Assembly (NCBI RefSeq): GCF_010500835.1
Contig: NZ_JAAAMJ010000007.1
Span: forward strand, 1-64,000
Direction of reading: 5' to 3'
Origin: Aurantimonas aggregata
Lineage (GTDB): Bacteria > Pseudomonadota > Alphaproteobacteria > Rhizobiales > Rhizobiaceae
DNA: 64,000 bases
Below the pieces are notes generated by a model. The model did not search any database. It had not been told where the DNA came from and saw only the letters and a list, made by a program, of their open reading frames with translations. Made by a program: the position numbers and the translations under genes. This document shows positions 17,938-30,834 of this stretch, one piece after another. How positions within the stretch are numbered: position 1 is the stretch's first letter; each line of letters begins with the position of its first letter.

Positions 17938-19821
17938 ATGTTGAAAACCATTACGAAGGCGGCGCTCGCCTCGAGCCTGCTCGTTTCGTTCGGGGCGGTC
18001 GCCTCGGCGAACGATGCGCTGATCGATCTTCAGGGCGACGCCAAGCAGTGGGTCATGCCCACCGGCAACTACGCCAACCAGCGCTATTCGACGCTGGAAG
18101 CCATCAACAAGGACAATGTCGGCGACATGGTCCCGGCCTGGACCTTCTCGACCGGCGTGCTGCGCGGTCATGAAGGCAACCCGCTGGTGATCGGCGACAC
18201 GATGTTCGTCCACACCCCATTCCCCAACATCGTCTACGCGCTCGACCTGAACGACGAGGGTTCGATCAAGTGGCGCTATGAGCCCAAGCAGGATCCGAGC
18301 GTCATCCCGGTGATGTGCTGCGACACCGTCAACCGCGGCGTCGCCTATGCCCCGGCAGAGGGAGCGGACAGTCGCGCCCTGGTCATCCTCCACCAGGCCG
18401 ACACCACCGTCGTGGCGCTCGACGCCGAGACCGGCGAGCAGGTCTGGTCCGTCCAGAACGGCGACGCGTCGAAGGGCGAGACCGGCACGGCGGCCCCGAT
18501 GGTCGTCAAGGACAAGGTCTATATCGGCATTTCCGGCGGCGAGTTCGGCGTACGCGGTTCGCTGACCGCCTACAACCTCTCGGACGGCAGCCAGGCCTGG
18601 CGCGCCTATTCGACCGGCCCGGACGACGAGATGCTGTTCGATCCCGAGCAGACGATGTCGCTCGGCGAGCCGGTCGGCGCCGATTCCTCGCTGAACAGCT
18701 GGGAAGGCGACCAGTGGCAGATCGGCGGTGGCACGACCTGGGGCTGGTTCGCCTTCGATCCGGAGCTGAACCTGATCTATTACGGCACCGGCAACCCCTC
18801 GACCTGGAACCCGTCCCAGCGGCCGGGCGACAACAAATGGTCGATGACCATCATGGCCCGCGACGCCGACACCGGCATGGCCAAGTGGGTCTACCAGATG
18901 ACCCCGCATGACGAGTGGGACTTCGACGGCGTCAACGAGATGATCCTCGCGGACATCGACGTCGGCGGCACCGAACGCAAGGCGCTCGTCCACTTCGACC
19001 GCAACGGCTTCGCCTACACGATGGATCGCGAGACCGGCGAGCTGCTGGTCGCCAAGAAGTACGATCCGGCTGTCAACTGGGCGACCGAAGTCGTCATGGA
19101 CAAGGATTCGGACCAGTACGGCCGGCCGCAGGTGGTCGCCGAGTACTCGACCGAGCAGAACGGCGAAGACGTGAACTCCACCGGCATCTGCCCGGCGGCG
19201 CTCGGCACCAAGGACCAGCAGCCTGCGGCGTTCTCGCCGGAGACCAACCTGTTCTACGTGCCGACCAACCACGTCTGCATGGACTACGAGCCGTTCCGCG
19301 TCGCCTACACGGCGGGCCAGCCCTATGTGGGTGCCACCCTGTCGATGTATCCGGCACCGGACAGCCACGGCGGCATGGGCAACTTCATTGCCTGGGACGC
19401 CGGCACGGGCGAGATCAAGTGGTCGCTGCCCGAGCAGTTCTCGGTGTGGTCCGGCGCCCTGGCGACGGCCGGCGGGATCGTGTTCTACGGCACGCTCGAA
19501 GGCTTCCTGAAGGCGGTCGATGCCGAGACGGGCGACGAACTCTATAAGTTCAAGACCCCGTCGGGCATCATCGGCAACGTGATGACCTACGAGCATGAAG
19601 GCCAGCAGTATGTCGGCATCCTGTCCGGCATCGGCGGCTGGGCCGGCATCGGCCTCGCGGCCGGCCTCACCGATCCCAACGCCGGTCTCGGCGCGGTCGG
19701 CGGCTATGCTGCCCTGTCGAAGTATACGGCGCTCGGCGGTCAGCTGACGGTCTTCACCGTCCCTGACCAGACCGCCTCGGCGGCCCCGGCTGACGCAGCC
19801 GCGCCTGCGGCCAACAACTAA
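17938..19821 (+). CDS. xoxF: Lanthanide-dependent methanol dehydrogenase, XoxF type
   Basis: A periplasmic PQQ enzyme that oxidises methanol (and often formaldehyde) and passes electrons to XoxG. The 627-residue precursor starts at ATG 17938 after GGGAGGA and has a signal peptide ending near VASAND. Key residues: adjacent Cys127-Cys128 (the PQQ disulfide), Glu202 in GGEFGVRG, Asn286 in GTGNPSTWN, catalytic Asp328 and the extra Asp330 in HDEWDFDG. Asp330 is the lanthanide ligand that separates XoxF from calcium-type MxaF, which has Ala there. Overall wording resembles the XoxF5 clade. The last 20 residues are an Ala/Pro tail. A terminator follows. Confidence 0.96.
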
Positions 19822-19865: not shown

Positions 19866-20009
19866 CACGACTTGAGGGCCCGTCGTCAGGCACCGACCTC
19901 GACGCCGGGCCCTCGCCTTTGGGAAAAGGGGTGGTACGCGATCCTGCGGGGCGTATCGACCGAAGCTCGGACCGCTAGAGCGGCCCGTTTGTCAATTCGT
20001 GAGGTTTGC

Positions 20010-20801
20010 ATGACGTATAGACTGATCGCCCTTGCCAGTACCGTGTTCCTCTCGACGACCAGTCTGGCCGGCGCCCAGGGCACCGGCACGACCGTCGTTC
20101 CGGCGGGACAGGAAGCACCGGCTGCGGGCGCGACGGCGCAGGCCGGGGGCGGGGCTGCCGCAACCAGCACGGCGCCGGCTGCTGCCGAGACGCCGGCCGC
20201 TGCTGCGACCGCAGCACCCGCTGCCGCTGAAGCGCCGGCCGCGGAAGAAGCGCCTGCCGCCGCCGAAGCGCCGGCCGCAGCGCCTGCCGCGGATGGCGCC
20301 GTGGCCATGGCGAGTGCCGAGGGCATGCAGCCCGACGCACATCCGTCCAAGGACACGGCGACGGAAGGCAACGAGCCCACCGAAGGCGACATGGGCAAGT
20401 GGGTCGATCCGGCCGGCAATCCCACCTACAATTTCAACGAGGACGGGACAGTCGACTGGTACGCCTGGCGCGGTTCGAAGAAATACGGCGCCAACTGCCT
20501 GCAGTGCCATGGTCCCGACGGCATGGGCTCGTCCTTTGCCCCGAACCTCACCGAGTCGCTGCAGAATCTGAGCTATTTCGACTTCGTCGGGATCGTGGTC
20601 AGCGGCCAGCAGAACCAGTGGACGTCGCCCAACTCGATCATGCCGGCCTGGGGCGAGGATCCGAACGTCATGTGCTCGCTCGACGCGATCTACATCTATC
20701 TGCGCGGACGCGCCGATGGCGTGATCGGCCGCGGCGAGCCACCGCGCCCGCCGAAGAACGACGAAGGCCAGAAGGCGGAGTACGACTGCCTGGGGTTCTG
20801 A
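20010..20801 (+). CDS. xoxG: XoxG-like c-type cytochrome, methanol-metabolism related
   Basis: The probable periplasmic electron acceptor of XoxF. The 263-residue precursor has a signal peptide (LIALASTVFLSTTSLAGAQ), then a low-complexity Ala/Pro/Glu linker (about residues 35-100), then one cytochrome c domain with the heme site CLQCH (Cys163, Cys166, His167) and the likely sixth ligand Met211 in SIMPAWGED. Two further cysteines (VMCSL and near the C-terminus in YDCLGF) fit the 'four-cysteine' methanol cytochrome family. I chose ATG 20010 with GAGG upstream. It lies between xoxF and xoxJ, the common xoxFGJ arrangement. Confidence 0.92.
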   Translation: MTYRLIALASTVFLSTTSLAGAQGTGTTVVPAGQEAPAAGATAQAGGGAAATSTAPAAAETPAAAATAAPAAAEAPAAEEAPAAAEAPAAAPAADGAVAMASAEGMQPDAHPSKDTATEGNEPTEGDMGKWVDPAGNPTYNFNEDGTVDWYAWRGSKKYGANCLQCHGPDGMGSSFAPNLTESLQNLSYFDFVGIVVSGQQNQWTSPNSIMPAWGEDPNVMCSLDAIYIYLRGRADGVIGRGEPPRPPKNDEGQKAEYDCLGF

Positions 20802-20805
20802 TGTG

Positions 20806-21726
20806 ATGAAACGACTTATTCCAGTCGTCGCCGGCATTGCGAGCATCTTGCTCGCGATGCCGCATGCGGCACAGGCGCAGGATCGCGAGTTCGGCGGCGA
20901 GATCGAGCTCGTCGACCCCGACGTGTTGCGGGTCTGCGCCGACCCGAACAACATGCCCTTCTCCAACCAGGCGGAAGAAGGCTTCGAGCAGGCCGTCGCC
21001 CGCTTCCTGGCCGAGAAGCTCGGCCGGCAATCGGTGTCCTACGCCTATTTCCCGCAGGCCACCGGCTTCGTGCGGATGACGCTCGGCGCCAATGCCTGCG
21101 ACCTCATCATCAGCTATCCGCAGGGTGACGAGCTCGTCCAGAACACCAACGCCTACTACCGGACGGCCTATGCGCTGGTCTATCCGGCGGACGGCGATCT
21201 CGATGGCGTCGAATCGCTGTCGGACCCGAAGCTGAAGGACAAGCGCGTCGGCATCATCGCCGGCACGCCGCCGGGCAGCTATCTGGCGCGGGCGGGGCTG
21301 ATGGGCCGGGCCAAGGCCTACCAGCTGATGATCGACACGCGGATCGACAATTCCGCCAAGGCGATGATCGACGACCTGGCCGCGGGCGAGATCGATGCCG
21401 CGGTGCTCTGGGGCCCGATGGCCGGCTACTACGCCAAGCAGGCCGAGCGTGACTATACCGTCGTGCCGCTGCACAAGGAGGAGGGCGGGGCCGCCATGGC
21501 CTTCCGGATTACCATGGGCGTGCGCCCGGCGGACCAGGAATGGAAGCGGACGCTGAACCGGGCGATCGCGCAGTACCAGGACGAGATCAACGAGATCCTC
21601 CTGTCCTACGGCGTGCCGCTGCTCGACGAAGAGGATCGGCCGATCCTGTCGAAGGCCGGGACGGATCCGCAGGCGACTCCGGGACCCGGGGAGGCGGGCG
21701 GAGCTCCTGCCGGCGACGCGCAATGA
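20806..21726 (+). CDS. xoxJ: XoxJ-like periplasmic binding protein
   Basis: A 306-residue exported protein with the type II solute-binding fold (signal peptide LIPVVAGIASILLAMPHAAQAQ; then LRVCADPNNMPFSNQAEEGFEQAVARFLAEKLG). It belongs to the MxaJ/XoxJ proteins linked to quinoprotein dehydrogenases, thought to help activate methanol dehydrogenase rather than serve transport. Two cysteines (RVCAD, NACDL) may bridge. The start is ATG 20806 or the GTG three bases earlier; it follows xoxG by 4 bp. Its stop overlaps the next gene's ATG. The C-terminal 25 residues are Gly/Pro/Ala rich. Confidence 0.92.
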   Translation: MKRLIPVVAGIASILLAMPHAAQAQDREFGGEIELVDPDVLRVCADPNNMPFSNQAEEGFEQAVARFLAEKLGRQSVSYAYFPQATGFVRMTLGANACDLIISYPQGDELVQNTNAYYRTAYALVYPADGDLDGVESLSDPKLKDKRVGIIAGTPPGSYLARAGLMGRAKAYQLMIDTRIDNSAKAMIDDLAAGEIDAAVLWGPMAGYYAKQAERDYTVVPLHKEEGGAAMAFRITMGVRPADQEWKRTLNRAIAQYQDEINEILLSYGVPLLDEEDRPILSKAGTDPQATPGPGEAGGAPAGDAQ

Positions 21727-22689: not shown

Positions 22690-23532
22690 TCAAAGCGCGC
22701 GGCTGATCGCCCGGCCGAGCGCGAAGGCCCGCTGCTCGATCATCGTCGGGACCTCGCAGACATAGGTCAGCGAAGCCCGCCGCTCGTTGAAGATCCGCGT
22801 GTCCCAGACCATCGACTGGCGTGCGTCCTCGACGGCGGCGGCATCGGCGCCTTGCTCGCGCTGCAGAGCGAAGAAGCTGGCATTCTCCTGCCGAAGCCGC
22901 GTCGCCAGCTCCTTCTGCTTGGCGCCGTAGCGCTCGATCCCTTCCATGACCTGGCTGCGCTCGGCATTCAGCGCGGCCAGCAGATCCTCGAACAGCGCCG
23001 CCGCGGCGGCATCGCGCTCCTCCTCGGGAAGCGAGGTAACGAAATCGGCGACCATCGCTTCGGCCTCGGCGAGCGGCAGGCGGCGGGCGATGACGGTACC
23101 GACCAGCGTGCGCATCGCTGGCGTGCGCTGCACGTCGTCGGCCAAAGCGAGGTCCGGCCCAGCCCAGAGCTGGGCGGGGGTCAGCGTTTCGACCCGGCGC
23201 TGGACGCAGGGCCAGTCTGTGGTGCCTTGCTGCGGGGCGATGGCAAAGCTCATCGGGTCGGACGCCGGCGCACCCTGGTCCGCGGTTCCTGCTTCCGGCG
23301 CATTGGTCGGCGCAGGACCTGGAACGACGAAGCCTTCGGGGATTTCCTGCGGCTGCGCGCCGGGCGCCAGCGCCGGGCTTTCCGGGGCGTTGGTGGGTGC
23401 GGGCCCAGGGACGACGAAGCCCTCCGGAACGTCGCGAGGCTGTGCGCCGTCCTGGGCGCCGGCCGGCATCAGGGCCAGACCGGTCGCGAAAACGGTGGCC
23501 CAGAGGGCGATGCGTGTGGATCGAGCGGACAT
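22690..23532 (-). CDS. Exported protein with an N-terminal tandem repeat, function unknown
   Basis: 280 residues starting at ATG 23532 after GGGAGGAGA-like sequence. It has a signal peptide (LWATVFATGLALMPAGAQ), then two copies of a 23-residue unit (residues about 29-51 and 58-80) with the core PEGFVVPGPAPTNAPE, nearly identical in both. The rest is helical with WPCVQRRVETLTPAQLWAGP and a coiled-coil-like stretch (about residues 175-225), ending with a second Cys in TYVCEVP that may bridge the first. It lies 59 bp after the PQQ-linked ABC permease and is probably in that operon. I know no family function. Confidence 0.68.
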   Translation of the reverse strand: MSARSTRIALWATVFATGLALMPAGAQDGAQPRDVPEGFVVPGPAPTNAPESPALAPGAQPQEIPEGFVVPGPAPTNAPEAGTADQGAPASDPMSFAIAPQQGTTDWPCVQRRVETLTPAQLWAGPDLALADDVQRTPAMRTLVGTVIARRLPLAEAEAMVADFVTSLPEEERDAAAAALFEDLLAALNAERSQVMEGIERYGAKQKELATRLRQENASFFALQREQGADAAAVEDARQSMVWDTRIFNERRASLTYVCEVPTMIEQRAFALGRAISRAL

Positions 23533-23591: not shown

Positions 23592-24446
23592 TCAGGCGGC
23601 CTGCCGCTTCCGGCTGATCAGCCCGCGCGACGGGTCGTAGGCAAGAATCGCGGCGCCGAGAAACGCGATGGTGCAGCCGAGGACGATCGCGAAGGCCTCG
23701 AGATTGAACTGACGATAGAGCGCGAAGCGCACGAGTTCCACCGCGTGGGTGAAGGGATTGAACAGGCAGATCGTGTAGAGCAGCGGGCTCGATTCCTGCA
23801 CCCGCCACAGCGGGTAGAGGGCCGAAGAGGCGAAATACATTGGGAAGATCACGAAGTTCATGATGCCGGCGAAATTCTCCAGCTGCTGCACCAGCGAGGA
23901 GAGCAGCATGCCGAGCGCGCCGAGCATCAGCCCGGCGAGGATCAGTGCCGGCAGGACGTAGAGATAGCCCTCCCAGGGCGGCTTCACGTCCCAGAACCAG
24001 GCGATGACGAAGAACACGTAGACCTGGAGGATGCCGACCGCGACGCCGGCGACGAGCTTGGAGACCAGCAGGAACCAGCGCGGCAGCGGCGAGACCAGGA
24101 GCGTCTTCATCGTCCCGGTCTCGCGGTCGTAGACCATCGAGAGCGAGGACTGCATGCCGTTGAACAGCAGGATCATGCCGACGAGGCCGGGGGTGATGTA
24201 CACCTCGTAGAGGATGTAGGTGACGTAGGGCGGCACGATCGAGACGCCGAGCACCTGGCGGAAGCCAGCGGCGAAGATGAACAGCCAGAGCAGCGGGCGC
24301 ACCAGCGCCGAGACGAAGCGGCCGCGCTGATGCAGGAAGCGCAACGCCTCGCGCCAGACGATGCCACGGCAGCAGACGACGTAGGCCGACAGCGGAAAGC
24401 CGCGCGGCGTGGCGTCGTCGGGCCGGGCAGGGGCGATGCTGCTCAC
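23592..24446 (-). CDS. ABC-2 type permease of the PQQ-linked alcohol ABC system
   Basis: The 284-residue inner-membrane subunit of an ABC exporter-type system has about six membrane segments (for example FVSALVRPLLWLFIFAAGF and VAGVAVGILQVYVFFVIAWFW). The conserved ABC-2 loop GTMKTLLVSPLPRWFLLVSKL is present. It resembles the PedC-type permeases found with PQQ alcohol dehydrogenases. It starts at a GTG overlapping the stop of the ATPase gene (4 bp), so both are coupled. The transported molecule is not known. Confidence 0.86.
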   Translation of the reverse strand: MSSIAPARPDDATPRGFPLSAYVVCCRGIVWREALRFLHQRGRFVSALVRPLLWLFIFAAGFRQVLGVSIVPPYVTYILYEVYITPGLVGMILLFNGMQSSLSMVYDRETGTMKTLLVSPLPRWFLLVSKLVAGVAVGILQVYVFFVIAWFWDVKPPWEGYLYVLPALILAGLMLGALGMLLSSLVQQLENFAGIMNFVIFPMYFASSALYPLWRVQESSPLLYTICLFNPFTHAVELVRFALYRQFNLEAFAIVLGCTIAFLGAAILAYDPSRGLISRKRQAA

Positions 24447-25237
24447 GAGGCCAACTCCAGATCGGGCTGGCGGCTGGCAAGACCGGTCAGGCGGGAGAAG
24501 GCGTCGCGGATCGAGCCGGCGCTTTCGGCCTCCACCACGTCCGGCACCAGCCCCTCGGCCAATACCTTGCCGTGATGCAGCACCACGACGCGGTCGGTTT
24601 CGTCGATCTCGTCGATCAGATGCGTCGCCCAGAGGACGCTGACGTTCTCGTCCTTCACCAGTCGCCGGACCTCGGCGACGATCTCGGCGCGCGAGCGGAT
24701 GTCGAGGCCGACGGTCGGCTCGTCGAGCAGGATCAGGCGCGGCCGGTGCATGAAGGCGCGGACGATCTCGACCCGCCGAAGCTGGCCGCCGGAGAGATTG
24801 CGGGCCTTGTCGCCCAGCCGGTCGAGGAGTTCCGAGCCGGCGAGAATTTCCTCGATGCGCCGGTTGGCGGCAGCGCCGGAGATGCCGTGCAGGGCGGCGT
24901 GATATTTCAGGTTCTGGCGGATCGAGAGCTCGAGGTCGAGCGTGCGCGCCTGGAACACCACGCCGAGCCGGCGCAGCGCCTCGCCGGGGCGCTCGCCGAG
25001 ATCGTGGCCGAGAATGCGGATGGTGCCCTCGCGGACGTTGAACAGCCGGGTGACCAGCGAGAACAGCGTCGACTTGCCGGCGCCATTGGGTCCGAGCAGC
25101 GCGGTGAACGAGCCCTGCGGTACCGTGAAGGAGACGTCGTCCAGCGCCTTGCGGGCGCCATAGGCATGGCTGACGCCGGCGACATCAAGGGCGGGCGGGG
25201 CGACGGCGGTTTCGAAAGCAGGGGCGATGCTGGCCAT
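24443..25237 (-). CDS. ABC transporter ATPase of the PQQ-linked system
   Basis: A 264-residue ATPase with Walker A GPNGAGKST, the signature LSGGQLRRVEI, Walker B LILLDEPTVGLD and the switch His in WATHLIDE. It drives the permease encoded next. I set the start at ATG 25237 (MASIAPAFETAV); a longer frame would add about 30 Arg-rich residues without support. The set ATPase-permease-propeller-binding protein in this region matches the ABC system named after PQQ-dependent catabolism. Confidence 0.92.
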   Translation of the reverse strand: MASIAPAFETAVAPPALDVAGVSHAYGARKALDDVSFTVPQGSFTALLGPNGAGKSTLFSLVTRLFNVREGTIRILGHDLGERPGEALRRLGVVFQARTLDLELSIRQNLKYHAALHGISGAAANRRIEEILAGSELLDRLGDKARNLSGGQLRRVEIVRAFMHRPRLILLDEPTVGLDIRSRAEIVAEVRRLVKDENVSVLWATHLIDEIDETDRVVVLHHGKVLAEGLVPDVVEAESAGSIRDAFSRLTGLASRQPDLELAS

Positions 25238-25395
25238 CACTGTCCGTTGCGATTGATCGGTCCGGCGTACCCTAGCCTGCCTCGCGGCGCGAAGACAGAA
25301 CCGGGGTCGTTGCCGGAAAGCGAAGGCCCGCACACCGTGGAGGGATGCGGGCCGGACGCAGGCTCTTGTTGCATGGATCGGCCGTCAGGCGCGGA

Positions 25396-26022
25396 TCACG
25401 GGACGACGGTGATCGTCCCCTTCATGTCCTGGTCGCCTTCCAGTCCTTCGACGTACCACTCGTAGCGGCCCGGGCGAATGGTCTGGAACGACACGCTGAT
25501 CGTGCCATGGGCGTCGTATTCGAGCCAGGCCGGCGCGCCGGCCATGTGGATCTCGAGGTCTTCGATGACGATCTGGTTCATCCAGACGTTGCGGAAGAAG
25601 CCGGGCGCGTTGAACTTGTACTCGACGTCGCCTTCGGACGAGATGTCCCAGCGATAGGCCTGATTGGAGCGCAGGTAGATGTCGTTGTGGCTGACCGCGA
25701 AAGGCTCGCCGCCCTGGCCGAGGACCAGCGGCGTGACGATCTGCGAGGAGAGCGTCGCGGCCGGCAGGCCGATCTGGTCGCCGTTGAGGGCGCTCGCCGG
25801 CATCATCTCCGAACCGGCGGGAATGTTCAGTTGGTCGGCCGTCGGCACCATCGCGGCGCGGTCGCTGCCGGCATCGTCATCATCATCGTCGTCGTCATCA
25901 TCGTCTTCGTCCGCGGCCGCGGCCGCGGCGGGGGTGCCGCCGGCGGCATCCTGCGCGGACGCGACGGTGATCGGCGCAAAGGCGAGCGTCGCCGCCATCA
26001 GCGAGAGCCAGAGTGGTTTCAT
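25396..26022 (-). CDS. Exported protein with a poly-aspartate run and a cupredoxin-like C-terminus
   Basis: 208 residues starting at ATG 26022 after GGGAGGAC. A signal peptide (LSLMAATLAFAPITVASAQ) is followed by an Ala stretch and then Asp38-Glu39 and eleven more Asp (residues 40-50). The C-terminal about 110 residues look like a beta-sandwich ending RPGRYEWYVEGLEGDQDMKGTITV, which resembles the end of cupredoxins, but the usual Cys and His copper ligands are missing. It lies between the propeller and the ABC ATPase on the minus strand. Metal binding by the acidic run is inference. No defined family function known to me. Confidence 0.75.
   Translation of the reverse strand: MKPLWLSLMAATLAFAPITVASAQDAAGGTPAAAAAADEDDDDDDDDDDDAGSDRAAMVPTADQLNIPAGSEMMPASALNGDQIGLPAATLSSQIVTPLVLGQGGEPFAVSHNDIYLRSNQAYRWDISSEGDVEYKFNAPGFFRNVWMNQIVIEDLEIHMAGAPAWLEYDAHGTISVSFQTIRPGRYEWYVEGLEGDQDMKGTITVVP
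25873..25911. repeat. Trinucleotide tract coding the acidic run
   Basis: 39 bp made of GTC and ATC (one TTC) triplets on the plus strand, read as GAC/GAT/GAA codons on the minus strand. Mixed codons show the Asp run is not one pure microsatellite, though length change by slippage is possible. Confidence 0.85.
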
Positions 26023-26090: not shown

Positions 26091-27065
26091 TCAGCTGTCC
26101 GGCGTGACGGCGACGCCCCAGGGCTCCTGGCCGACCTGCACCGACTTGATCACCTCGCCGGCATCCACGTCGACGATCGAGATGTCGTTGGAGATGCCGT
26201 TGGTGGTGAACAGGTGCTTCTGGTCGGGCGAGAAGGCGAGCTGCCAGACGCGCTGGCCGACGAGGAGATAGTCGAGCACCTCGTAGGTGTTCGCGTCCAC
26301 GACGGCGACGCGGTTGGCAGGTCCGAGCGCCACGTACGCCTTGGTGCCGTCGTCGGTGATGCGCACGCCGACCGGCTGGATCGCCTCGGGCCGGATGCCC
26401 TGGATCTCGAACGTGACCTTGTGCTTGATCTCCTTGGTCTCGGCGTCGATGACGCTGACCGTGCCGCCGATCTCGGCGCTGACCCAGATCTCGGAACCGT
26501 CCGCCTTGTACTGGGCGAAGCGAGGCCGCGAATCGACCAGCACGTTGGCGGTGATCTGCTGGCTGTCGCGGTCGATGAAGTGGGCCATGTTCGTCGTTTC
26601 CGACGTGTTCACGATGGTCTGGCCGTCGGGCGAGATGCCCATGCCCTCGGGCTCGACGCCGACCGGGATCTCGGCGAGGCGGGTGCCGGTCTCCAGATCG
26701 ATCGCGGTGACGAGATTGTCGTCCTCGTTCGCGGCATAGAGGCGGGTGCCGTCCGGCGAGACCACCAGCAGCTCGGGATCGGGGCCGGAAGGCAGGGTGC
26801 GGATGAACTCGTAGGTCTCGGTGTCGTAGACCTGGATCGTGTCGTTGTCGCTGGCGCAGATATAGAGGTGCTTGCCGTCCGGGCTGACCGCGATGCCGCG
26901 GGGCCGCTGGCCGACGGCGAAGGTCTCGATGACCTCGAAATTCTCCGAGTCGAGCACGGTGATGTCGTTGCCCTTCTCGTTGGATACGAAGATCTTGTAG
27001 GCGAAAGCGGGACTCGCCGATAAGGCAAGGGTCGCGGCAAGGGCCGCAATCGTCAGTCGTCTCAA
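26091..27065 (-). CDS. Exported YVTN beta-propeller protein associated with PQQ-dependent catabolism
   Basis: A 324-residue periplasmic propeller: signal peptide (LTIAALAATLALSASPAFAY), then about seven repeats such as GQRPRGIAVSPDGKHLYICASDNDTIQVYD and VGQEPWGVAVTPDS at the end. It matches the family that accompanies the PQQ-linked ABC genes. The start is a TTG at 27065 preceded by GGGAGG; the ATG close by is out of frame. It heads the group propeller, poly-Asp protein, ATPase, permease. A docking role between periplasmic partners is likely but unproven. Confidence 0.88.
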   Translation of the reverse strand: MRRLTIAALAATLALSASPAFAYKIFVSNEKGNDITVLDSENFEVIETFAVGQRPRGIAVSPDGKHLYICASDNDTIQVYDTETYEFIRTLPSGPDPELLVVSPDGTRLYAANEDDNLVTAIDLETGTRLAEIPVGVEPEGMGISPDGQTIVNTSETTNMAHFIDRDSQQITANVLVDSRPRFAQYKADGSEIWVSAEIGGTVSVIDAETKEIKHKVTFEIQGIRPEAIQPVGVRITDDGTKAYVALGPANRVAVVDANTYEVLDYLLVGQRVWQLAFSPDQKHLFTTNGISNDISIVDVDAGEVIKSVQVGQEPWGVAVTPDS

Positions 27066-27444
27066 TTCATCCTCCCGGCGGGATCGGTGATCCCGTCTCC
27101 TGAAAACCTCCCGGCAGGATGCCGACAAGCCAGACCTTGCAACGAACGAGCCGCCGTCGGCCCCGTTCGATATGCCCGCATCGCCTCGCAGAGTGAAGGC
27201 GCGTTGCGAGCCATCGACAAGCCGGCGTCGGCTGATCGGCTCTGCCGCCCTCCCGCCCGACATCCGGTGCCCACCGTGTCGGGCCCGCCGCGATCCTGAC
27301 GATCCGGCGAAGCGACCCGGCCGCCCCCGACCCCGCTGCCTTTGGGAGGGGCAGGAGGCCGGGAAACGACCGTTGCGCGAAGCTAGCCCGGATAAATCAG
27401 CGCGGACAACGGGATAAGTTCCCTTCTTCCTTGCTGGCCGGCGC
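27066..27444. other. Intergenic region upstream of the propeller/ABC operon
   Basis: 379 bp between two minus-strand genes. It should contain the promoter for the propeller-ABC group. No convincing gene, strong hairpin or clear promoter hexamers are visible. Confidence 0.4.
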
Positions 27445-28083
27445 TTACGGCGTTTCGCGGCCGAGCATCCGCCCGCCTTTTGTCTCCAGCGCAAAGCGGA
27501 CGAGATCGGAGGTGCGCTCGACGCCGAGCTTCTCCTTCATGCGGGTGGAGGTGTTGGCGATGGTCTTGTAGGCGACGCCGAGCCCGTCGGCGATGTCGGC
27601 GAGGCTCTTGCCCTCGCCCAGCATGTGCAGGATCTGCAGCTCGCGCCGCGACAGGTCGCGCGCCCCGCCGCCATGTGCCTCGTGCTCGGCCATCATCGCG
27701 GCGGTTTCGGTGTCGACATAGGCGATGCCCTCGTACGCCTTCTCGATCGCCACCAGCAATTCGTCCGACGGCGCGCTCTTCGACACGTAGCCAAGCGCCC
27801 CGTCGCGCTGGGCGGACACGGCGTAGACGATGTCGGAATACATCGAGAAGACGACGACGCGGGCCTTCGGATCGTCGGCGCGCAGCCGCCGCAGCGCGTC
27901 GAGGCCGCTGCCATTCTTCAAATTGATGTCGAGCACGACGACGTCCGGGCGGAAGCGCCGGAATGCCGCCAGCGCCTCCGAGGGGCTCTCGGCCTCGGCG
28001 ATCTCGATGGCTGGCAGCACCTCGACGAGCCGGCGCACCCCATCGCGCACCACGGTGTGATCATCGACGATCAGGATCTTCAT
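27445..28083 (-). CDS. NarL/FixJ-type response regulator
   Basis: A 212-residue regulator with an N-terminal receiver domain (VDDHTVVRDGVRRL; phospho-acceptor Asp52 in VVVLDINLKNGSG; Lys in YVSKSAP) and a C-terminal LuxR-type helix-turn-helix (LSRRELQILHMLGEGKSLADIADGLGVAYKTIANTSTRMKEKLGV). It overlaps its partner kinase by 4 bp. Placed inside the methanol/PQQ region, it probably controls xox or PQQ-linked genes, like other alcohol-responsive NarL-type regulators. The target promoters are unknown. Confidence 0.9.
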   Translation of the reverse strand: MKILIVDDHTVVRDGVRRLVEVLPAIEIAEAESPSEALAAFRRFRPDVVVLDINLKNGSGLDALRRLRADDPKARVVVFSMYSDIVYAVSAQRDGALGYVSKSAPSDELLVAIEKAYEGIAYVDTETAAMMAEHEAHGGGARDLSRRELQILHMLGEGKSLADIADGLGVAYKTIANTSTRMKEKLGVERTSDLVRFALETKGGRMLGRETP

Positions 28084-29510
28084 GCCGCTCTTTCCCCTTC
28101 ATCTGCCGCGTCGTCCGCGGCGGCGCGATCGCCCAGCGGCACGTTCCCCGTCAGCCGGACCCCCGGCGGCAACGCCACCTGCGAGACGGCGAGTTCGCCG
28201 CCGGCCGCCTCGAGGCGCTCGCGCATGCCGATCAGGCCGAAGCCGCCCACCGGGCCGCCCGCGGGCAGGCCGCCGCCGTCGTCGACGATCTCGAAGCACA
28301 GACGCCCGTCCTTCGGCGCGACCCGCACCGCGATGCGCGTCGGGTGGCCGTGCCGCAGGGCATTGTTGACCGCCTCGCGGATCACCCGCTGCAGCAGGGT
28401 CTCCGTCGCCCCGCCCCAGTCGCCGTCGGCGATGTCGGCGACGAAGGCGACCTCGGGATGCCGGCGGGCGAGCTCCTCCAGCATGGTCTCCACCGCGACC
28501 TTCAGGCCGAGACCGGGCAGGAGGCCGGGGCGCAGGTCGCCGAGAATCCGCCGGACCTCGCGCCTCGCACGGTGCGCCGCCTGCTTGATCGCCTCGGCGC
28601 GCTCGGCGAGCGGCGCTTGCGTCCCGTCGCGCCTGGCCAGCCGTGCAATCGCCGATGCATCAACGTCGATGGCGAAGAGCAGCGGCCCGACCTCGTCGTG
28701 CAGGTCGCGGGCGAGGTCAGCGCGCTCCTCATCCTGCAGCCGCAGCAATTGTTCCGAAAGGCGGCGGTTGCGGGCGGATACCTCGTCGAGCTGGTTCGAC
28801 ATCTTGTTGAAGCCGGCGGCCAAAGCGCGCATTTCCGGCGGCCCGAAGGCCTCCACCGCGGTGCCGTAGTCGCCCTTGCCGATGCGGCCGAACCCGGCCT
28901 GGATCGAATCCAGCGGGCGAAGCGACCGATCGGCGACGACCCAGACGGCGACGAAGGCGATCAGCACGAACAGGCTGAGGATGGCAAAGCCGACCGACAA
29001 TTCGGTCCAGGTATCGGCCAGTTCGTTGCGCGGGTCGATCGAGACGACCGCCCCGGTCATCGGCAGGGCGCTGCCCGACAGGGGCATGACGGTCACGGAG
29101 GGATCCGGGGCAAGGAGCTGCACGAACCAGGAAGGCAGGGCGCCGCCGTCCTGCGCCGGCAGCGAGAAACTGCGGACGGCGCCGGTCGCGTCGATCAGCA
29201 TGATCTGGACGTGGCGATCGCCGTTGAAGGCGCGCACGAAGCTCGCCAGCTTGCCCGGCACGTCGCGCGAGGCCGGCAGCTCGGCGATCAGCTGCGCGAC
29301 GCGGTTGGAGGCGACGCTGCGCGCCGCGGTCAGTTCGGCGGCGATGTTCTCCGTCGCCAGCCGGAAGGTCAGCACGCTGCCGATCGCCAGGATGACGAGG
29401 AAGGCGATGGTCAGCGTGACGGCGAGGCGGGCTTTGAGGGACACGGGAGCGCGGCGGCCAATCCTGTTGCGACGAGTTGCGGGGGCGGGGCTCGGCGCGC
29501 CGCGACCCAT
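28080..29510 (-). CDS. Membrane sensor histidine kinase (HisKA_3 type)
   Basis: The kinase partner of the preceding regulator. In the longest form (476 residues) it has membrane helix 1 (about 31-51), a periplasmic sensor loop of about 120 residues, helix 2 (about 172-193), a HAMP-like segment, the phosphorylation site DLARDLHDEVGPLLFAI (His271) and a Bergerat ATPase domain (IREAVNNALRHGHPTRIAV, DDGGGLPAG, GFGLIGMRERLEAAGG). The first 22 residues are basic and Pro-rich, and a GTG at 29444 (VSLKARLAV) may be the true start. What it senses is unknown; position suggests a C1 compound, a lanthanide or redox state. Confidence 0.88.
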   Translation of the reverse strand: MGRGAPSPAPATRRNRIGRRAPVSLKARLAVTLTIAFLVILAIGSVLTFRLATENIAAELTAARSVASNRVAQLIAELPASRDVPGKLASFVRAFNGDRHVQIMLIDATGAVRSFSLPAQDGGALPSWFVQLLAPDPSVTVMPLSGSALPMTGAVVSIDPRNELADTWTELSVGFAILSLFVLIAFVAVWVVADRSLRPLDSIQAGFGRIGKGDYGTAVEAFGPPEMRALAAGFNKMSNQLDEVSARNRRLSEQLLRLQDEERADLARDLHDEVGPLLFAIDVDASAIARLARRDGTQAPLAERAEAIKQAAHRARREVRRILGDLRPGLLPGLGLKVAVETMLEELARRHPEVAFVADIADGDWGGATETLLQRVIREAVNNALRHGHPTRIAVRVAPKDGRLCFEIVDDGGGLPAGGPVGGFGLIGMRERLEAAGGELAVSQVALPPGVRLTGNVPLGDRAAADDAADEGERAA

Positions 29511-29580: not shown

Positions 29581-30834
29581 CTAGTCGTCGAAGCTGCACT
29601 CGGTCTCGGGCTCGTCGACGCCGAGCGTGTCGAGTTCGGAGACCTGGTGCAGGAAGCCCTCCTGCGGCGAGGCCGAGACCACCGAATCCTCGGTGCCGAG
29701 CAGGATGGGCTGGCGCAGCTGCCAGTCCCAGTTGCGGAAGGTCAGGCGCTGGCCCTTGAAGGCGGCGATGGCGAAATCCTCGCCCTTGATGAATTCGGCG
29801 AGCGCCGCGGGGTCGGTCGACTGCGTCCGCGACGCGGCCTCGCCGATCACCCGGATCGCCGTCCAGACCTGCATGTCCTTCGACTGCATGCGCCGCTCGG
29901 CCATGTCCTCGAAGCGGTTCTGGATCTGCGCGCCGCCCCACTGCTCGCTGGCCGGATGCCACGAGCCGGCGGTGAGGCCCGCGGTGCCGGCGACCGGCCG
30001 CGGCACCCAGTTGCGCCAGGGGACGTAGGTGCCGAACACCTCGCTCTCGTCGGCGACGAGCAGCACGTCGTGATCCGGCAGATCCTGCAGGAACACCGGG
30101 ATCTGGCGCTGCACCAGCGCCTGGCCGGAATCGGTGGCGCGCGCACCGCCCGCGTCCTCGAAGATCTTCTCGCCGACGATCGTCCCGCCGAACTTTGTCG
30201 CCGATTTCTTCATCGCTTCGGCGAAGAGCTGGTCGCCCTCGTGCTCGCCTGCGACGAGCGCCCAGTTCCGCCACTGCTTCCACATCAGATACTGGGCGAT
30301 GCCGTCGGTCAGCATGGCGCGGGACGGTGCGGTGTGCAGCAAGTTGGCCCGGCAGGCCTCGCCGCGCAGCCGGTCGTCGAGCGACCCGGCGTTGAACACC
30401 AGCGTGTCGGTCTCGCCCGCCAGCTCGGCGACGGCCAGCGTGTCGTCGGCGGACAGGTCGGTGACGATGTACTGTAGACCGTCCGCCAGCATCTGGCGCG
30501 CCGCGGCCGCGGCGTCGTCGCCCGGTGCCAGCGTGACGACCTCGAGCTCGAATTGCTGGCCCATGAACGAGCCGGTGGTGTTGTTGTCGGCGATAGCGAG
30601 ATTGGCGCCGGCAAGGCCGATGTCCTCCGGCGGGATGTCGAGCACCGACAGGGCCAAGGTGCGCTCGTAGGTGCGCAGGAACCCGATCCGCACCGACTGC
30701 ATCTGGTTCTGGCCGGGCGTGGTCGCGGTAGCACCTGCCGCCGGCGCGGTATCCTGGGCGAGACCCGGCATCGGCGCCAGCATCGCGGCACCGAGAAGCA
30801 GGGATCCGAACGTGTTTCTGAGCATCGCGTGCAA
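29581..30834 (-). CDS. Periplasmic binding protein of the PQQ-linked ABC system
   Basis: A 417-residue exported protein with a signal peptide (GSLLLGAAMLAPMPGLAQ), related to the branched-chain amino-acid type binding proteins but of the group tied to PQQ-dependent alcohol dehydrogenases (VRIGFLRTYERTLALSVL, SADDTLAVAELAG, LLHTAPSRAMLTDGIAQYLMWKQWRNW). TTG 30834 is favoured by GGGAGGAAG upstream; ATG 30825 is the alternative. It stands upstream of the kinase gene in the same direction and divergent from the DUF3280 gene. Ligand unknown. Confidence 0.88.
   Translation of the reverse strand: MHAMLRNTFGSLLLGAAMLAPMPGLAQDTAPAAGATATTPGQNQMQSVRIGFLRTYERTLALSVLDIPPEDIGLAGANLAIADNNTTGSFMGQQFELEVVTLAPGDDAAAAARQMLADGLQYIVTDLSADDTLAVAELAGETDTLVFNAGSLDDRLRGEACRANLLHTAPSRAMLTDGIAQYLMWKQWRNWALVAGEHEGDQLFAEAMKKSATKFGGTIVGEKIFEDAGGARATDSGQALVQRQIPVFLQDLPDHDVLLVADESEVFGTYVPWRNWVPRPVAGTAGLTAGSWHPASEQWGGAQIQNRFEDMAERRMQSKDMQVWTAIRVIGEAASRTQSTDPAALAEFIKGEDFAIAAFKGQRLTFRNWDWQLRQPILLGTEDSVVSASPQEGFLHQVSELDTLGVDEPETECSFDD

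Follow-up and report, generated by a model that had tools for sequence, protein, structure and literature searches.

LutC of the lanthanide-import cluster in Aurantimonas aggregata, a predicted cupredoxin-like protein with a lineage-specific poly-aspartate run

Introduction

In the lut cluster of Methylorubrum extorquens AM1 the genes run in the order lutA, B, C, D, E, F, G, H, and LutD, the product of META1p1781, binds lanthanides, as set out in the available part of the published text (PMC7391723). The same part of that text reports that lutE and lutF are required for La-dependent methanol growth, that deletion of lutD causes no significant growth defect, and that deletion of lutC leads, with La, to a 9 h lag and growth at 0.11 per hour, which was called a small defect (PMC7391723). 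Since lutC is missing from the list of complemented AM1 mutants given there, polarity of the lutC mutant is possible (PMC7391723). LutC is already known, in this sense, as a gene with a mild phenotype. LutB is named as a YVTN propeller in the accessible portion of a further account (PMC9291206).

A related operon, PedA1A2BC of Pseudomonas putida, is required for La-dependent growth at low La, according to the excerpted text of its description (PMC6839425). By that published description it matches the gene set considered here; as described, it consists of four genes in which the propeller adjoins the ATPase, and hence it would be without a lutC-type gene.

Landiscernin (LanD, the same protein as LutD; PDB 9c8w and 9c8x) is, like LutC, exported and associated with lanthanide handling, and its gene adjoins lutC in the lut cluster; it has about 60 mature residues and no sequence match to LutC. 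Lanmodulin (LanM) is likewise an exported, Asp-rich protein of lanthanide users, which makes it comparable to the A. aggregata protein described below; lanmodulin is an EF-hand protein, whereas a Pfam scan of the A. aggregata protein up to E 1 returned no EF-hand.

Results

The lut cluster of A. aggregata

The window is the whole 64,000-nucleotide stretch of A. aggregata DNA that was analysed (contig NZ_JAAAMJ010000007.1, positions 1 to 64,000). The genes that place the protein of interest are:

17953-19821, plus strand: XoxF-type PQQ methanol/ethanol dehydrogenase (TIGR03075, E 2.6e-225; the name XoxF is taken from the neighbourhood)
20803-21726, plus strand: XoxJ-like protein (TIGR03871, E 5.7e-89)
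22690-23499, minus strand: lutG-like exported protein (35-37% identity to the ORF after the permease in four Methylobacterium-like loci; start uncertain)
23592-24446, minus strand: lutF ortholog, ABC permease (TIGR03861, E 1.6e-120)
24443-25333, minus strand: lutE ortholog, ABC ATPase (TIGR03864, E 2.7e-102; ORF, with the true start probably nearer 25234)
25396-26022, minus strand: lutC ortholog, exported protein of 208 aa (ORF; homologs at the same operon position; cupredoxin model)
26091-27239, minus strand: lutB ortholog, PQQ-associated beta-propeller (TIGR03866, E 1.9e-153; start uncertain)
27445-28083, minus strand: response regulator between lutA and lutB (named from sequence)
28080-29510, minus strand: sensor histidine kinase between lutA and lutB (named from sequence)
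29581-30834, minus strand: lutA ortholog, substrate-binding protein (TIGR03863, E 2.8e-144)

The order on the one strand is thus the TIGR03863 protein, histidine kinase, response regulator, TIGR03866 propeller, lutC, TIGR03864 ATPase, TIGR03861 permease and exported protein, and at lower coordinates lie xoxF, an xoxG-like cytochrome (named by sequence), xoxJ and other quinoprotein accessory genes. A preliminary description of this DNA had put the gene beside a propeller and an ABC transporter of the PQQ system, and the TIGR03866, TIGR03864 and TIGR03861 matches, with TIGR03075 nearby, bear this out. A scan for promoters and terminators found nothing above shuffled sequence.

Some features of the neighbourhood are recorded here in their own right. 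The xoxG-like cytochrome (19872-20801) has a long Ala/Pro/Glu-rich linker ahead of its heme domain, and the lutG-like exported protein contains the stretch PEGFVVPGPAPTNAPE twice near its N-terminus. Elsewhere in the same genome (G000:C17:10232-10480), and also in genome G001, there is a member of PF02315, the small subunit family of calcium methanol dehydrogenase, which is missing from 12 of the 14 genus and family genomes tested.

Identity of the exported protein

Homologs were sought in 100 relatives and in 385 genomes of the class, the A. aggregata genome included, with matches in 30 and 28 genomes, respectively. Seven loci (L030 and L052-L057) without a LutC domain in tblastn at 1e-6 were dropped, as were L058 and L059, which are second views of loci with tandem copies, and identical sequences were merged. 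Among the remaining 52 loci a propeller, ATPase or permease lies within 1.5 kb of LutC in 43 and not in 8, and in one (L020) the sole importer match within 1.5 kb is an ATPase match of 30%. Tandem or multiple LutC matches occur in some Alphaproteobacteria (L032/L058, L048/L059, G596 and G620), with up to six per genome, some of them weak.

Seven stretches around LanM or LutC, from Methylobacterium-like and other genomes, were inspected; four contain a lut cluster (L080, L081, L082 and L085) and three contain LanM without one. LanM lies near the lut cluster in three of the four and is 71-72% identical to the AM1 protein. In all four clusters a homolog of the window protein, at 43-50% identity, is found behind the propeller and ahead of a small ORF and the ATPase. 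The small ORF of L082 matches landiscernin (PDB 9c8w, E 1.6e-16), and those of the other three loci were assigned as LanD by their similarity to it. The position of lutC in AM1 itself was obtained by elimination, as META1p1780 by gene order, with the Methylobacterium-like loci serving as the comparison. Because the homolog in these clusters adjoins the landiscernin ORF, and because of the AM1 gene order, identification of the window protein as the LutC ortholog of a lanthanide-import (lut) cluster is well supported by position and sequence comparison. The initial impression that no described protein has this layout was mistaken, since by position and homology the protein is the LutC of a lut import operon. 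It is not LutD/LanD: a search with the LutC profile returned no landiscernin chain up to E 1, and in the Methylobacterium-like clusters LanD is the product of the ORF that follows LutC.

No Pfam or NCBIfam family scored above its cut-off for the window LutC or for 30 LutC sequences, the best matches below cut-off among the 30 being Cupredoxin_1 (E 0.027) and plastocyanin (E 0.0022). Where LutC is annotated, it is called 'hypothetical protein' among the matches listed (60 of 75 plasmid records).

Parts of the LutC protein

The lutC ORF opens with an ATG at 26022 and encodes the following parts, all on the minus strand:

25954-26022, minus strand: signal peptide, residues 1-23, cut between ASA and Q (judged by eye; model confidence low)
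25873-25911, minus strand: acidic run DEDDDDDDDDDDD, residues 38-50 (from sequence, genome pattern search and codons)
25747-25872, minus strand: lineage-specific N-terminal extension, residues 51-92, with the motif MPASALNGDQIGLP (from sequence; model confident from residue 61)
25399-25746, minus strand: cupredoxin-like domain, residues 93-208 (alignment, AlphaFold2 model and Foldseek)

The N-terminal sequence is MKPLWLSLMAATLAFAPITVASA, then the putative signal-peptide cut, then QDAAGGTPAAAAAADEDDDDDDDDDDDAGS. An exported protein with 13 consecutive acidic residues had been described at this position; a signal peptide is recognizable by eye, and the run does read D-E-D11, beginning ~14 residues past the end of the signal peptide as set by eye. 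The window LutC differs from the Methylobacterium-like LutCs in having the run and an extra 42-residue extension and in having no LanD behind it; the latter proteins have no acidic run, and lutD/lanD comes next. What is shared with the AM1-type LutC is the slot between the LutB propeller and the ABC ATPase and, in the case of the L082 homolog, the predicted fold.

A predicted cupredoxin fold without the copper Cys and second His

In an AlphaFold2 model of the window LutC the ten-residue means of model confidence are 88-97 from residue 61 onward and 45-52 across the acidic run. A Foldseek search with this model returned laccases, copper nitrite reductases, AcoP and Cupredoxin_1, and the predicted model of the Methylobacterium-like LutC from L082 gave the same kind of matches, so a cupredoxin fold is well supported at the level of predicted structure. 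A LutC profile search of the PDB listed plastocyanins, auracyanin and nitrite reductases along with unrelated proteins, at E values no better than 0.18. A single-sequence PDB match to v31Bagel8, whose E of 8e-6 is a sum over repeated copies of a single 30-residue stretch, was taken as chance, together with similar chains.

LutC has the same predicted fold as the cupredoxins AcoP (7z3b), Cupredoxin_1 (4hcf) and the nitrite reductase domains; unlike these, it has the copper Cys and the second His replaced and four carboxylates fixed instead. In a weak plastocyanin profile alignment (E 0.28) the copper Cys and second His positions fall on V191 and L194 of the window LutC, and with this placement the former is Cys in 8 of 181 LutC domains and the latter is His in 2 of 181, that is, the second His is nearly always lost. 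Position 200 is Met in 120 of the 181. The suggestion of a cupredoxin stripped of its copper ligands thus holds for the fold and for the loss of the Cys and second His; placement of the first His is uncertain.

The near-invariant carboxylates are E134 (177/181 LutC domains), E157 (179/181), E168 (178/181) and D/E170 (180/181). Strand order in the model would put E134, E168 and D170 at the pole of the former copper site, and the set E134, E157, E168 and D/E170 may form a docking or metal-binding face near this old copper pole.

The acidic run in related LutCs

A search of the 4.86 Mb A. aggregata assembly (95 contigs) for ten consecutive GAN triplets returned the lutC run only, in 4 overlapping matches. 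For wider comparison, a contig scan confirmed 135 stretches, of which the best 80 were taken as named loci, some representing several loci per assembly; the genera among these best 80 include Aurantimonas, Jiella, Fulvimarina, Aureimonas, Mesorhizobium, Phyllobacterium, Ensifer, Rhizobium and others. Near the 80 loci, runs of at least five Asp outside LutC number 2 in 1.55 million residues, counted in six-frame stop-to-stop frames of at least 100 aa. The uniqueness of the GAN pattern in its own genome and the rarity of such runs near related loci argue that the run in the window LutC is not due to chance.

The neighbourhood of these loci resembles that of the window. Among the best 80 of 135, both propeller and ATPase are in the flanks of 74, and XoxF is within the flanks of 37, in agreement with the lanthanide context first suggested for this gene. 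Relatives (at least 40% identity) of the histidine kinase and response regulator are found in the flanks of 30 and 31, respectively, of the same best 80 of 135 loci, and the kinase/regulator pair at 27445-29510 of the window could be lanthanide-responsive.

A run of at least three Asp precedes the LutC domain in 79 of the 80 named loci (best 80 of 135), the exception, with two Asp, being L160. Within this set the runs reach at least four Asp in 74 loci, at least five in 67 and at least eight in 24, the starts of L115 and L116 having been reset for these counts; run length spans 2 to 14 Asp over all the named loci and 5 to 14 within the genus, and the longest run starts at a median of residue 29 (range 23-77). 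In a first tree of LutC sequences, one branch (SH-aLRT 99) has the run in 73 of its 74 rows, and a separate, distant LutC group (G484, G797, L023 and L049) also has it, which amounts to at least one further origin. The run is missing from most distant LutCs and from all 25 LanD-linked LutCs. Conservation in homologs, proposed at the outset as a check, is therefore found among the close relatives and fails in the LanD-linked and most of the distant proteins.

The codons of the window run are a mixture of GAC, GAT and GAA. Across related LutCs the runs contain GAC 371 times, GAT 242, GAG 6 and GAA 5, a D:E ratio of 613:11, as against 652:531 in the LutC domain, both being counts over related rows that are not independent. 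Identical Asp codons are neighbours in 261 of 512 cases, with 267 expected (again over related, non-independent rows), and with this lack of an excess codon slippage is not supported as the origin of the run. Retention of Asp at the protein level is well supported by these sequence counts.

LanD linkage and its relation to the run

In 397 genomes of the order, scanned for LanD by scoring the 14 best candidates per genome, LutC is present in 86 and LanD in 28, of which 25 are strong (E 2e-23 or better). The weak matches in G788, G644 and G700 (E 4e-6 to 3e-5), where LutC was not found, were left uncounted. All 25 strong LanD genes are on the same strand as LutC, 15-182 bp behind its domain. One LutC-LanD pair, L019/L092 of G092, has no propeller or ATPase match within 1.5 kb, which suggests that LutC and LanD may remain linked even where the importer genes are elsewhere.

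None of the 25 LanD-linked LutCs in these 397 genomes has an Asp run, and runs of at least four Asp are found in 6 of the 86 LutC genomes, 0 of them with LanD. Neither a run of that length nor LanD is present in 55 of the 86, so neither is needed for LutC. Taken as a plain table over the 86 genomes, the tendency of run and LanD to exclude each other does not reach significance (Fisher p 0.17). On the strength of these two figures, a general replacement of LanM or LanD by the run was discarded. One genome, G069, has a LanM match (E 7e-18) and neither LanD nor run.

In a second tree, built from these 86 LutCs plus 18 rows picked from the earlier loci, one branch (SH-aLRT 95) contains 43 LutCs, of which 25 are LanD-linked, 16 have a run (4 from the sample and 12 among the added rows), 2 have neither and 0 have both. 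As drawn, this tree has several weak forks and places LanD-linked LutCs to more than one side of the branch with the run, so that the simplest reading would be that a single branch both lost LanD and gained the run. Well-supported branches force one change of LanD only, and the proposed swap probably corresponds to about one evolutionary event.

Absence of the known lanthanide proteins from run-bearing genomes was also assessed. By tblastn at 1e-4, neither LanM nor LanD was found in the available flanks of the 80 named loci (best 80 of 135). LanD was not found in the A. aggregata genome, and the protein there that matches LanM best (E 4.5e-6) is an EF-hand protein of a general kind. A clean absence is blurred by three run-bearing genomes: G003 has a LanD match of E 0.008 inside a 707-residue frame, and in G022 and G042 EF-hand sequences match LanM at E 1.6e-10 and 2.3e-7, with a stop in frame in both cases.

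Discussion

The comparison described above leads to a proposal that we judge to be evenly balanced between right and wrong: LutC handles periplasmic lanthanide for the ABC importer, and the run is a low-affinity, metal-holding tail that succeeds LanD in cis. LutC would act in the periplasm as an accessory to the Lut lanthanide ABC importer; in this lineage it carries a poly-aspartate tail. This tail, presumably flexible and at or near the mature N-terminus, would loosely bind several Ln3+ (or Ca2+) ions via its carboxylates and so concentrate them locally around LutA, LutB and LutEF of the importer. The nearest related lineages encode LanD as a small protein of its own directly behind LutC, and the tail occurs where LanD is absent. 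That metal is bound, that the carboxylate set has a function and that the tail has replaced LanD are what we infer from the conserved sequences and their distribution. The AM1 lutC deletion, in the part of the text available, is reported to cause only a small defect in growth with La (PMC7391723); LutC therefore more probably acts in import or in handling lanthanide within the periplasm than in bringing it directly to XoxF, although the latter is possible.

Some unrelated systems offer precedents for parts of this proposal. Calsequestrin, the protein of a eukaryotic Ca2+ store, has a disordered, Asp/Glu-rich acidic tail that acts as a high-capacity, low-affinity metal store; it is unrelated to LutC, and the likeness lies in the acidic tail as a proposed metal store. 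FtrB (8vuk), a fold match to LutC by Foldseek, is, we assume, a cupredoxin-like protein of a bacterial iron-uptake system whose operon and transporter differ from those of LutC; the likeness is in the idea of a cupredoxin as an accessory to metal import.

A more specific and rather doubtful extension is that LutC and LanD are a metal-handling pair. LanD presumably has an open coordination site, and the carboxylate face of LutC at the dead copper centre would complete the coordination of the Ln3+ that LanD holds; the rhizobial/aurantimonad line would have lost LanD and carried the poly-aspartate tail in cis instead, so that a cupredoxin would have become a lanthanide chaperone.

The main rival to the metal-holding tail, though one that we regard as unlikely, is a tail that serves purely as an electrostatic docking tether for a positive partner (LutA, LutB, the permease, XoxF or XoxG) and has no part in metal binding. 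The tail is charge-rich and variable in length, it is modelled with low confidence as expected of a flexible stretch, and its operon encodes periplasmic partners, all of which would suit a tether; however, the bias for Asp over Glu (613:11) is unexpected if charge alone mattered, and the split between the tail and the lanthanide-binding LanD also speaks against a tether.

It is improbable that the tail is an aid to secretion or solubility, in which an acidic start of the mature protein helps Sec export or keeps the protein soluble. The run does lie close behind the signal peptide (median start at residue 29 in the best 80 of 135 loci), but in the six other proteins of the window whose N-termini are of exported type the acidic runs do not exceed 4 residues, the search of the 4.86 Mb assembly found no second run of ten, and the LanD-linked LutCs do without one.

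There is still less to recommend a codon-repeat expansion without function: close relatives do differ in run length (5 to 14 within the genus), yet GAC and GAT are mixed with no excess of identical neighbours, the run is found in 79 of 80 loci from many genera (best 80 of 135), and it has at least one further origin. Least probable of all is that LutC has kept a copper or redox function, or that Cu2+ or Mn2+ is the metal bound by the tail, for which one could cite the cupredoxin fold, the Met at position 200 (120/181), the Cys at the copper position in 8/181 and the names of several relatives that recall manganese oxidation, but against which stand the scarcity of that Cys (just 8/181) and of the second His (2/181) and the use of related operons for lanthanides in the two studied organisms, as far as the available texts describe them (PMC7391723; PMC6839425).

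In the open-licence literature searched, we found no account of LutC as a cupredoxin or of a poly-Asp lanthanide protein. Relative to the literature searched, the LutC fold, its carboxylate set, the linkage to LanD across genomes and the run are new.

The findings bear on how lanthanides cross the periplasm to reach their importer, and they concern a little-known protein. LutC now has a predicted fold, a conserved set of carboxylates, tight linkage to LanD and a natural variant that has a tail and lacks LanD. With this tailed, LanD-less variant the parts played by LutC and LanD can be put to a direct test, and the tail itself is a simple candidate for rare-earth capture.
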